Source: Verrucomicrobiia bacterium
GTDB lineage: Bacteria > Verrucomicrobiota > Verrucomicrobiia > Limisphaerales > JADLHS01
Length of the DNA stretch: 64,000 nt
Assembly (NCBI GenBank): GCA_011525685.1
Contig: WYBW01000181.1
Coordinates: 1-64,000 of the forward strand
Reading direction: 5' to 3'
Shown here: piece by piece, positions 3,893 through 8,713 of the stretch
Layout of the letters: each line of letters opens with the position of its first letter
Position numbering within the stretch: position 1 is the stretch's first letter
Program-made: the position numbers and the translations under genes
Notes under the pieces: model-generated
Told to the model about the DNA's origin: nothing
Seen by the model: only the letters and a program-made list of their open reading frames with translations
The model's database searches: none

Positions 3893-4987
3893 GTGATTCG
3901 CAATATCATCTTCGACTGGTCGGGCACTCTTGTGGACGACCTGCCGGCGGTCTGGGAGGCGACCAATCACGTTCTGATACAGGCCGGTCGCCCGGCGATG
4001 ACGCTCGAGAAGTTTCGGGCCGAGTTCTGCCTGCCGTTCACCATTTTCTACAACAAGTTCGTCCCGCACGTCCCCCTACCGCAATTGGAGGAGTGGTTTC
4101 ATGGCCGGTTCCGGCAGTGTCAGGACTCGGTTGTGGCCTTGCCGCACGCGCGCGAGTTCCTGGAATTCTGCCGGGACCACAAGCTGCGGACCTTCCTGTT
4201 GAGCACGGTGGCCCGGGATCATTACGAGGTGCAACAGCGAACCAGCGGCTTCGGTGAATTCCTCGACAAGCCGTACCTCGGTGTCTGGGATAAACGCCAG
4301 AAGATCCACGAAATCCTGCGGGACAACCACCTACACGCGGAGGAGACGCTGTTCATTGGCGATATGCAGCACGACATCGAAACCGCGCGGCATGGCGGCA
4401 TCCATTCCTGCGCCGTGCTCACCGGTTACAATACGCTGGAGCAACTGCGCGCGGCGAAACCCGATGTGATTGTGGAACACCTCGGCGAGCTTCGCGAGAT
4501 TCTGATCCAGAACGGACTGCACCTCACTCCGCTGACGCGAGCCTTCGAGGAGACGCATCCGCCCGTGGTCACGGTGGGTGCGCTGGTTTTCAATGATGCC
4601 GGCGAGGTCTTGATGATTCGGACGCACAAGTGGTCGAACCTGTGGGGCATTCCCGGCGGAAAGATCAAGTGGGGCGAGCCGTCCGAAGCGGCTCTTCGCC
4701 GCGAGATCAAGGAGGAAGCCAATCTGGACCTTGCCGACGTGGAGTTCGTGCTGGTGCAGGATTGCATTCACTCGAAGGAGTTTTACCGCGACGCGCATTT
4801 TGTGCTGCTCAACTACACGGCGCGGGCGCCGGGGCGGCAAACGGTGATCCTCAACGAGGAAGCGCACGAATTTCGCTGGCTGGCTGTCGAGGCGGCCCGG
4901 GAGCTGCCGATCAACGCCCCGACCCGAAAATTGCTGGAGGCTGTCATCCAAAGGAACTCCGCCCATGTCGAAAATCAACATCATTGA
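3893..4987 (+). CDS. HAD-family phosphatase fused to a Nudix hydrolase
   Basis: A 364-residue two-domain protein with a GTG start. Residues 1-205 are HAD-like: motif I is D8-W-S10-G-T (second Asp replaced by Ser), motif II is near S104, and motif IV is GD157-MQHD161. Residues about 222-355 are Nudix, with a box starting at G256: E262, then R270-E271-I-K-E274-E275, and Asn277 where Gly is usual. The last 23 bases overlap folB, so the two are probably translated together. In folate synthesis a Nudix enzyme removes pyrophosphate from dihydroneopterin triphosphate, a phosphatase then removes the last phosphate, and FolB acts next. The fusion would supply both steps; this is inference from context. 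The changed motif I resembles phosphonatase-type DxAGT, so the HAD half may be unusual or not a standard phosphatase. Confidence 0.88.
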   Translation: MIRNIIFDWSGTLVDDLPAVWEATNHVLIQAGRPAMTLEKFRAEFCLPFTIFYNKFVPHVPLPQLEEWFHGRFRQCQDSVVALPHAREFLEFCRDHKLRTFLLSTVARDHYEVQQRTSGFGEFLDKPYLGVWDKRQKIHEILRDNHLHAEETLFIGDMQHDIETARHGGIHSCAVLTGYNTLEQLRAAKPDVIVEHLGELREILIQNGLHLTPLTRAFEETHPPVVTVGALVFNDAGEVLMIRTHKWSNLWGIPGGKIKWGEPSEAALRREIKEEANLDLADVEFVLVQDCIHSKEFYRDAHFVLLNYTARAPGRQTVILNEEAHEFRWLAVEAARELPINAPTRKLLEAVIQRNSAHVENQHH

Positions 4988-5315
4988 CCTGGAGGTTTTC
5001 TTTCACGTGGGGGTTCCAGACGAGGAACGCGCCCGCCCGCAACGTCTCCTGCTGGCGGTGGAGATGGACTTTGATTTCACCGCCGCCGCCGCCGCGGACA
5101 GCATCACCGGGACCATAGACTACTTCGCGGTTGCCCAGCGCCTGCACGGGCTTGGCGAAGGGCGGAGTTGGAAATTGATCGAAACCCTCGCCAGCGAGAT
5201 TGCGGACCTGGTGTTGAAGGAATTCAAACCCAACGGGGTCACGGTGGAAGTGAAAAAATTCCCCATTCCGCAGGCGCGATACGTGGCGGTGCGCGTGACC
5301 CGCCAACGAGGTTAG
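4965..5315 (+). CDS. folB: Dihydroneopterin aldolase
   Basis: A 116-residue protein, a normal length for FolB. It starts MSKINIIDLEVFFHVGVPDEE, matching the family N-terminus (I-x-L-x-L-x-x-x-HxGVxxEER). It ends with the usual V-x-V-x-K-x-x-I-P segment (VTVEVKKFPIPQARYVAVRV). FolB cleaves 7,8-dihydroneopterin to 6-hydroxymethyl-dihydropterin and glycolaldehyde in the cytosol. The motif Ile-Asp-Tyr (GTIDYFAVAQRL) fits the family position that helps form the pterin pocket. Its start lies inside the end of the HAD-Nudix gene in another frame. No other folate gene is visible in the window. Confidence 0.9.
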   Translation: MSKINIIDLEVFFHVGVPDEERARPQRLLLAVEMDFDFTAAAAADSITGTIDYFAVAQRLHGLGEGRSWKLIETLASEIADLVLKEFKPNGVTVEVKKFPIPQARYVAVRVTRQRG

Positions 5316-5774: not shown

Positions 5775-5967
5775 GGTAGCACTCCTCCGTCCTTGGCAGC
5801 ACGCCCGGGCCATGGGCGCCGGAGCGAACCGCGGGATCGGCCGTGATTCGGCTGGCAGGGCCTCATGGTGCTCAAGCGTTGCATCATTCCACCAATGGTA
5901 ACTGCCGCAGTGTAACACGAGAACTCCACGGCGGAACACAATTTTTTCCGCCCTTGATCCCTCGAAC

Positions 5968-6180
5968 GGGCGCATCTCAGTTTATTGCAGGCAGGCATTC
6001 CTGGCGGAGCGCAGGTTTCCCAACCTGCGGTATCGCCGACTTCCAGTCGGCGGGCCCAGGCACGGCGTGGCAGGCTAGGAATTCGCCGCGGTTGCGGATT
6101 GGAAATCCGCGACCCGGCAGACTGGAAGTCCGCGCTACGGCATCGCCTCGGCGCCCCCTGCAAGAAAATGAGATGCGCCC
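5968..6180 (+). mobile_element. 213-bp MITE, copy 1
   Basis: The ends are inverted repeats: GGGCGCATCTCA at 5968 and TGAGATGCGCCC ending at 6180, with similarity reaching about 24 bp inwards (TTGCAGG). The outer flanks are a perfect 8-bp duplication, CCTCGAAC at 5960-5967 and at 6181-6188. Inside are four short hairpins: GCAGGTT/AACCTGC at 6011-6028, GCCGACT/AGTCGGC at 6035-6051, GCGGATT/AATCCGC at 6094-6110, and GCAGACT/AGTCCGC near 6118-6134. No protein is encoded. A near-identical inverted copy of the same length lies at 8244-8456. The transposase that moved it is not in this window. Confidence 0.88.
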
Positions 6181-6266
6181 CCTCGAACCACAAGCGGTAT
6201 TAAGCCTTGCAGCAATGGAAACGCGGGAGTAAGAATGGCCTCACAGCACTCAATCCCTATCGCGTC

Positions 6267-7067
6267 ATGAAACCGGAACAAGCGATCCAACGCTTCCAGC
6301 GCCGAGGGTTTACCCTCATCGAGTTATTGGTCGTCATTGCCATCATTGCCATCCTGGCCGCGATGCTGTTGCCGGCGCTTTCCAAAGCCAAGGCCAAGGG
6401 GCAGCGTACGGCCTGCATGAACAACGCCCGCCAGGTCGGTCTGGCGATGCACATGTATGAAACCGATTACGGCCGGATTCCTGTCCCCGGAGGCACAGCC
6501 AGCCCCGCCAACGACACACCTTATTTCAACGACCGTTTCAACACCACGCTCAGTCCGTTGCGGGCCTTCGGCCCTTACGTGGGCGCGAAGGAGCCGGGGA
6601 CGATCATTCCGGTTTACAACTGTCCCTCCGTGAAACCCAACCCCAAGCCCGCTTACGCCGCCACGGCGACCAGTTCCACCTCCCTGCTGGTAAGCCACGT
6701 CGTGATGCTCAAAGGGCCGAGCAAGCTGGCGCGGCCGGCGCGCACCGTGGCGATCCAGGAAAATTTCTCGTTGATGCATGGCGTCTGGTATGAACCCGAG
6801 TCGGTGAGCGTCTCGGCGGATACCTTCACCCAATGGCACACTTGGACGGCGTCCAGCGCCAGCGAATGGAGCGGCACGCCAAGAGAGCACTTCAACCACA
6901 ACCACGAGCAGGGCGGCAACCTCATCTTTTCGGACGGCCACGCGGAATACAAGAAGAGCAGGCAAACCTCCAGCCTCGACTTCGGGTTGCTGGACAGCCG
7001 GATGCAAGACTCCCGTTGGGAACCCAACGAAACGCACTCCCGGGCCACCTACGTTTACGCCAAATGA
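6267..7067 (+). CDS. Prepilin-type protein with H-X9-DG C-terminal motif
   Basis: A 266-residue protein starting at ATG 6267. Its N-terminus is a class III (type IV pilin) signal: [20 protein letters not shown], with the cleavage Gly before Phe and the conserved Glu at mature position 5. After it come [28 protein letters not shown] and a long variable domain. Near the C-terminus [13 protein letters not shown] fits the H-X9-DG pattern of a family amplified in Verrucomicrobia and Planctomycetes. These proteins are probably processed by a PilD-like peptidase and exposed as pseudopilins; their roles are largely unknown. MITE copy 1 ends 87 bp upstream. It is probably cotranscribed with the lipoprotein gene 25 bp downstream. 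Confidence 0.88.
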
Positions 7068-7532: not shown

Positions 7533-8234
7533 ATGTCACCAACGGCCAAATCCTCGCAACGCGGCGGGTTCACCCTGATTGAGTTGCTGGTGGTCATTGC
7601 CATCATCGCGATTTTGGCGGCGATGTTGTTACCTGCCCTGGGCCGGGCCAAGGAAGCCGGCAAGCGGACGAGTTGCTTGAGCAACCTTCATCAGATGGGC
7701 ATCGCCCTGCTCATGTATGCGGATGATAACAACGGCCAGATTCCGCGCGGCAATCATCCCATCTGGTGGCAGTTGTTGACGCCCAACTTGGGCGGGCGTT
7801 CGACGAATGATTACCGCAGGGTGCGGATTTACACTTGTCCCAGTTACCCGGACAAACGCCAATTGATTTGTTACGTGGTCAACGCGTGGCGCTTTAGCAG
7901 CCCGCTGGACACCACCGGGTCGGAACATCTGGGCACCTCACAGTTGAGCCGGTTCCAACGTCCTTCCGACACGATCTATCTGGCCGATAATGAGCATGGC
8001 GCTTGGCGACCGATCATCACAGAACTGGGCAACATCGGCTCGGACAACCTGAACGATGTTTGGAGTCCGGAGCATCTGCCCTACGCACCGGGTGGAGTGC
8101 AGGTCCGCCCCAACCGGCGAGTGGCGCTGGCCCGCCACGGGCGCGGCCCAAACCTCTTGTTCTTCGACGGCCATGCCGAGTTCAAACGTGCCAGGCTGAT
8201 TACGGTGGATGATTGGCGCGAGCAGCGGCGGTGA
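7533..8234 (+). CDS. Prepilin-type protein with H-X9-DG C-terminal motif
   Basis: A 233-residue protein with the class III signal [20 protein letters not shown] followed by [38 protein letters not shown] short central domain contains [11 protein letters not shown]. The C-terminus has [13 protein letters not shown], again the H-X9-DG pattern. It is related to the gene at 6267 but not a close duplicate outside the signal. MITE copy 2 inserted directly after its stop codon: the left target duplicate begins at 8235, immediately after TGA. Confidence 0.87.
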
Positions 8235-8243
8235 GTCGCTGGG

Positions 8244-8456
8244 GGGCGCATCTCATTTTCTTGCAGGGGGCGCCGAGGCGATGCCGTAGCGCAGACTTCC
8301 AGTCTGCCGGGTCGCGGACTTCCAATCCGCAAACGCTGCGAATTCCTGGCCTGCCACGCCGTGCCTGGGCCCGCCGACTGGAAGTCGGCGATACCGCAGG
8401 TTGGGAAACCTGCGCTACGCCAGGAATGCCTGCCTGCAATAATCTGAGATGCGCCC
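8244..8456 (-). mobile_element. 213-bp MITE, copy 2 (inverted relative to copy 1)
   Basis: Same length and nearly the same sequence as 5968-6180 in opposite orientation. Ends are GGGCGCATCTCA at 8244 and GAGATGCGCCC ending at 8456. The flanks carry a perfect 9-bp duplication, GTCGCTGGG at 8235-8243 and 8457-8465. The hairpins GCAGACT/AGTCTGC and GCCGACT/AGTCGGC are perfect here. The target sequence differs from that of copy 1, so the two copies inserted independently. Confidence 0.88.
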
Positions 8457-8713
8457 GTCGCTGGGCCTGTTGGCCGATTCTCCGCCGCGTCCAAGCACTG
8501 CGACTCCACCAATCCCCCGCCGCCTACGGCGACTTGAGCCATTCTGACGAGCCGTCGTCACCGTCGGCTCGCTTGGAACGCTTTGCGCTATTGCAACTGT
8601 CTGAATTGAAGGCCGGCCCTTGACACGGGCGGGCAAACATGGAGGTTGTCCTACTTTGGGGCAGACCGACGTTCCGTGGTATATTCGCGGACAAAGATAC
8701 AAACGTGGCAAGT
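8457..8713 (+). promoter_or_regulatory. Upstream region of the metalloprotease gene
   Basis: About 250 bp between MITE copy 2 and the protease start. A TATATT box at 8680-8685 has a weak TTTGGG/TTGGGG box 18-19 bp upstream (8655-8661), and a TTGACA hexamer lies at 8620-8625 without a good -10 partner. These are only candidate promoter elements. No gene or RNA is recognised here. Confidence 0.3.

Follow-up and report, generated by a model that had tools for sequence, protein, structure and literature searches.

A HAD-Nudix fusion protein encoded upstream of folB in Verrucomicrobiota is a predicted enzyme for the two dephosphorylation steps of folate synthesis

In the 64,000-nucleotide stretch of DNA analysed here (the window), the gene at 3893..4987 encodes a fusion of a HAD and a Nudix domain. 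We predict that its product is bifunctional and acts in the pterin branch of folate synthesis, where it carries out the two-step dephosphorylation of dihydroneopterin triphosphate ahead of dihydroneopterin aldolase (FolB), and we put the probability of this reading at about 0.6. The HAD domain is the firmer assignment of the two and is quite probably a dihydroneopterin monophosphate phosphatase. The Nudix domain is the weaker half; it seems somewhat likely to be a dihydroneopterin triphosphate pyrophosphatase that is non-orthologous to NudB. FolE2, accompanied by FolE in this genome, would supply 7,8-dihydroneopterin triphosphate, the Nudix domain would remove pyrophosphate from it to leave the monophosphate, the HAD domain would take off the last phosphate via an aspartyl-phosphate on Asp8, and the resulting dihydroneopterin would be cleaved by FolB, translated from the overlapping downstream gene. 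The domains, their intact catalytic residues, the conserved coupling to folB and the repeated fusion to FolB are direct observations. From the genomic context we infer the substrates of the two domains and the order of the steps, and catalysis on neopterin phosphates by the window protein is a prediction.

The fusion gene lies on the forward strand and codes for 364 amino acids from a GTG start, which is backed by homologues that likewise open with M-I-R-N in the alignment. Its annotation draws on Pfam, NCBIfam, 80 homologous loci, the alignment and an AlphaFold model, the last showing two confident domains (mean pLDDT 88, pTM 0.63). The downstream folB (4965..5315, forward strand, ATG start, 116 aa) matches PF02152 with an E-value of 1e-25 and reaches 84.3 bits against the equivalog cut-off of 72.15 bits of NCBIfam TIGR00525, which places it in the FolB family; it is the sole FolB match of the profile search in its own genome. 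The 23-bp overlap of the two genes, already noticed in the earlier note, is present in the sequence at 4965..4987 of the forward strand, and AAAGGA is located ~9 nt upstream of the folB ATG. Genes for a PQQ-type propeller, an unassigned protein and a CBS protein surround the pair on the opposite strand, so that the pair looks like a two-gene operon. The genome comprises 6.7 Mb in 199 contigs and has its nearest relatives among Limisphaerales, Pedosphaera and 'subdivision 3' bins.

The presence of a HAD and a Nudix domain in one protein was borne out by Pfam. The HAD domain with its C1 cap spans residues 1-206 (3893..4510, forward strand, as are all features of the protein given below) and contains a HAD_2 match at residues 5-175 with an E-value of 1e-15. 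It adopts the C1-cap phosphatase fold and has structural matches to HAD phosphatases with Z up to 23.4. Motif I reads DWSGT (residues 8-12, 3914..3928) with Asp8 as the nucleophile, motif II is represented by Ser104 (4202..4204), motif III by Lys134 (4292..4294) and motif IV by GDMQHD (residues 156-161, 4358..4375). In an alignment of 143 HAD domains of every architecture, Asp8, Trp9, Gly11, Thr12, Lys134, Gly156, Asp157, Met158 and Asp161 never vary, and Ser or Thr occupies position 104 throughout. With the nucleophilic Asp, the Ser/Thr of motif II, the Lys of motif III, the acidic pair of motif IV and the Rossmann fold all in place, the domain belongs to the HAD superfamily.

The same family lacks the DxD form of motif I with its second Asp, the general acid/base. 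The replacement of this residue by Ser10 had been read correctly from the window before, and we can add that position 10 is Ser in 141 of the 143 homologues and Cys in the other two; Ser is a hallmark of the family and no oddity of the window copy. Other HAD families replace the second Asp as well, with Ala in phosphonatase, Tyr in dehalogenases, Thr in P-type ATPases and Ser in HDHD2/LHPP, so activity with Ser10 is conceivable. An additional invariant residue, Asp16, may help catalysis. We considered two known identities for the domain and rejected both. As a phosphoglycolate phosphatase (TIGR01449) it scores 53.2 bits against a cut-off of 180. Phosphonoacetaldehyde hydrolase (PhnX) was suggested by the DW(A/S)GT motif; in the alignment the cap region has no invariant Lys, and the PhnX-like model gives 23 of 219 bits.

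The Nudix domain covers residues 222-350 (4556..4942), with a Pfam match at residues 225-349 (PF00293, E-value 2e-22, 80 bits against a cut-off of 21). Its Nudix box, G-x5-E-x7-RE-U-x-EE-x-N-U, is located at residues 256-278 (4658..4726) and retains the catalytic Glu and everything else except the last canonical Gly, which is replaced by Asn; the domain is thereby a member of the Nudix hydrolase superfamily. Across an alignment of 99 Nudix domains the catalytic Glu and Arg of the box are invariant, and the family carries a long conserved signature (RTHKWSxLWGIPGGK, QDCIxSxEFYR and HFxLLNY). Against the NudB model NF006961 the domain reaches 26.8 bits for a cut-off of 103, which places it outside the NudB equivalog. 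The five other Nudix domains in the same genome all fall below this cut-off, the best with 29.7 of 103 bits. Locus L131 (genome G189, C4:26091-26486) has a stand-alone Nudix domain similar to the window's Nudix family (E-value 3e-32); this genome belongs to another class, and neither HAD nor FolB is encoded near the domain. The fold, motifs and residues of both domains leave the substrate unfixed, and its assignment comes from context.

Regarding the pathway, FolE (PF01227) was detected in 2 of 53 genomes, FolE2 (PF02649) in 52 and FolK in all 53. FolE was therefore discarded as a pathway marker, being absent from 51 of the genomes and replaced by FolE2. The presence of FolE2 implies that dihydroneopterin triphosphate is made by an enzyme of this type, with FolB and FolK acting downstream, and the gap left by annotation between FolE2 and FolB/FolK comprises the two dephosphorylation steps and no others. 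In this genome and its order, the PTPS proteins that were read are of the QueD type with a CxxxHGH motif and lack the Glu in or with the Cys motif that marks PTPS-III, so a PTPS-III shortcut past FolB is no answer. The window's genome has both FolE and FolE2, unlike nearly all of its relatives. A FolP of ~280 aa was not found in it; the candidates were a frame as long as MetH and a pterin-binding protein that is partial, which may reflect an assembly gap. These folate genes and frames involve contigs C8, C124, C61 and C170.

The scan of genomes recovered 194 relatives, nearly all labelled Verrucomicrobia in the best 80 taken for comparison of loci. In 72 of these 80, folB follows the HAD-Nudix gene on the 3′ side, nearly always immediately. 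Among the remaining eight, two have no room left on the contig, one (L057) retains a folB fragment only and five have no folB. We then used an order-wide sample of 146 genomes, in which the HAD, mostly fused to Nudix, occurs in 131, FolB in 129 and both in 125. The folB lies 3′ on the same contig and strand in 119 of these 125 genomes, within 400 bp in 118, and the median gap between the domain matches in the 119 is 43 bp; in the other six the two genes are on different contigs. The possibility, raised in the earlier note, that homologues would rarely be found near folate genes is thus contradicted, and an arrangement that recurs this often does not arise by chance. Other neighbours vary, the commonest family being present in 10 of the 33 loci that extend 3.5 kb to either side and the next in 5, which argues that the pair itself and not the region is kept.

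Presence of HAD and FolB agrees in 136 of the 146 genomes (Fisher p 1e-9), but this statistic deserves little weight as independent proof, as it is largely explained by linkage and incomplete assemblies. Adjacent genes are jointly lost at contig gaps, which confounds their co-absence within the order, and in the Akkermansia-like genus the two are fused, so their co-loss there is a single event. Moreover, every case comes from one class of one phylum, and the adjacency is in part simply inherited. In Methylacidiphilum-like genomes the HAD adjoins a LOG-family gene, with FolB located elsewhere in the genome. The phylum-wide search found FolB without this HAD in most other Verrucomicrobiota, several of which have folP and folK beside folB. 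Four such loci (L186, L187, L188 and L189) form a compact folP-folB-folK operon with no HAD or Nudix gene. No alternative phosphatase was seen beside folB in 20 loci of Verrucomicrobiota without this HAD, nine of which had no gene calls.

The phylum-wide search also showed that the HAD exists without the Nudix domain, and in most of these loci folB comes directly after it. In 22 loci of two genera, mostly Akkermansia-like, HAD and FolB form one uninterrupted reading frame, and in three genomes of the window's own order (L132, L133 and L134) HAD, Nudix and FolB are all encoded in a single frame, with each domain above its Pfam cut-off; the genome of L134 is a single contig. The HAD residues D8, T12, S/T104, K134, D157 and D161 are kept across all architectures. 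On a tree of HAD domains from 90 loci, in which many forks are weak, parsimony requires fusion to FolB to change 5 times and the presence of Nudix about 12 times. The safe statement is that at least two separate fusions to FolB took place, because the HAD-FolB and HAD-Nudix-FolB forms are found in different orders. When enzymes that catalyse consecutive steps are fused, this strongly indicates that they share a pathway, and the role of the HAD half as the phosphatase ahead of FolB, predicted from genomic context, is well supported.

The main genus with HAD-FolB encodes many GH20 hexosaminidases in five genomes. One of these enzymes shares ~95 % identity with PDB 8PXU and a second one matches 7CBN, both from Akkermansia muciniphila. 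Based on these matches we regard the genus as Akkermansia, and this gut genus is probably among the carriers of the fusion. Two Akkermansia-like genomes, G113 and G196, have neither the HAD nor FolB. The complete genome G113 retains FolE2, FolK and FolP, and none of the readings discussed here covers it. We looked for a PTPS-III bypass in both, but the PTPS read from G113 is of the QueD type (C-x3-HGH) and that of G196 scores alike. No remnant of HAD-FolB was recovered from either genome, just ordinary HADs at about 24 % identity.

The proposal that both dephosphorylation steps are encoded beside FolB therefore holds in its genomic part, given the adjacency, the HAD-FolB and triple fusions and the presence of FolE2 and FolK. 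Context speaks well for the HAD half and less surely for the Nudix half, since the Nudix domain is often absent from HAD genes beside or fused to folB: no two-domain HAD-FolB fusion has it, and about 14 HAD genes in the window's own order lack it. There, either another Nudix serves or the Nudix domain has a different job. It is on these genomes, including all Akkermansia-like ones with the fusion, and on the repeated change of Nudix presence on the tree that an alternative can be built in which only the HAD, as dihydroneopterin monophosphate phosphatase, takes part in folate synthesis, another Nudix performs the triphosphate step and the fused one acts elsewhere, e.g. in the cleaning of damaged nucleotides. 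We regard this as unlikely, given how strongly the Nudix active-site residues and the long family signature are conserved and given that the domain is kept between HAD and FolB in the three triple fusions.

The protein could also guard the pathway by dephosphorylating pterin phosphates that are oxidised, epimerised (dihydromonapterin) or in overflow, and Nudix and HAD domains fused to other B vitamin genes have indeed proved to be damage-control or missing-step enzymes (table in PMC4921024). Such a role seems improbable here, as the genome must dephosphorylate dihydroneopterin triphosphate and its five other Nudix domains all stay below the NudB cut-off. Very improbable in our view is a FolB that, in this lineage, cleaves dihydroneopterin monophosphate and leaves glycolaldehyde phosphate or phosphoglycolate to the HAD. 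Phosphoglycolate-phosphatase-like HADs are among the closest solved folds and the partial NCBIfam matches fall in the same group, but the scores are far below the phosphoglycolate-type cut-offs (53 of 180 bits), and FolB enzymes use the unphosphorylated substrate. We give equally little credence to an unrelated substrate, with the HAD-Nudix gene and folB sharing an operon through descent only. The restriction of all cases to one class and the separate location of HAD and folB in Methylacidiphilum-like genomes would fit; the varying neighbours beyond the pair, its spread over many families and its fusion on more than one occasion speak against it.

The folds and the pathway are known, and the architecture is new. 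A comparative study of folate genes described the Nudix enzyme FolQ in few bacteria and the HD-type FolQ2 in others, leaving the last phosphate of dihydroneopterin monophosphate to a non-specific phosphatase (PMC1971073). A 2026 review still shows this phosphatase as unidentified (PMC13259868), and a survey of fused metabolic enzymes includes HAD fusions in the thiamin pathway but does not mention FolB (PMC4921024). In the open-access literature we found no paper naming a HAD for the dihydroneopterin monophosphate step, and the HAD described here is probably a new enzyme family for it. The window Nudix shares fold and box with FolQ/NudB and lies beside a folate gene as FolQ does in Lactococcus (PMC1971073), but by score it is no orthologue, it is fused behind a HAD, and its canonical box Gly is replaced. 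The HAD shares the fold and motifs II-IV with C1-cap subfamily I (the phosphoglycolate phosphatase and beta-phosphoglucomutase group), whereas it has Ser for the second Asp, about 10-21 % identity to solved chains and scores far under the family cut-offs. The Clostridium FolQ2 is likewise an alternative phosphohydrolase put at the same step as the Nudix enzyme by gene clustering (PMC1971073), although it belongs to the HDIG superfamily and has an unrelated fold. Eukaryotic FolB-FolK-FolP fusions also join FolB to neighbouring pathway steps (PMC4224340), whereas in HAD-FolB and HAD-Nudix-FolB the partners are upstream dephosphorylation enzymes. The HAD phosphatases found via thiamin gene fusions, as far as they are outlined in the survey that cites them (reference 96 in PMC4921024), similarly fill a missing B-vitamin phosphatase step, for another vitamin and from another HAD family.

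At slightly better than even odds, a dedicated dihydroneopterin monophosphate phosphatase exists in the form of a DxS-type HAD, HAD-Nudix-FolB joins three consecutive steps in one polypeptide in some Verrucomicrobiota, and Akkermansia makes folate via HAD-FolB. A step long ascribed to non-specific phosphatases would then have an enzyme of its own, and the Nudix step is without an assigned enzyme in most bacteria. Metabolic models of Verrucomicrobiota, among them probably those of the gut genus Akkermansia, would have two gaps closed, and a defined enzyme would be available for pterin engineering. A HAD family fused to FolB makes the open phosphatase question directly testable with one protein.

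Elsewhere in the window, we noticed a 217-nt inverted repeat (5966-6182 and 8242-8458) with 97 % complementarity between its copies. It flanks two prepilin-like ORFs (6207-7067 and 7533-8234) and a small ORF, and looks like a dispersed repeat element.
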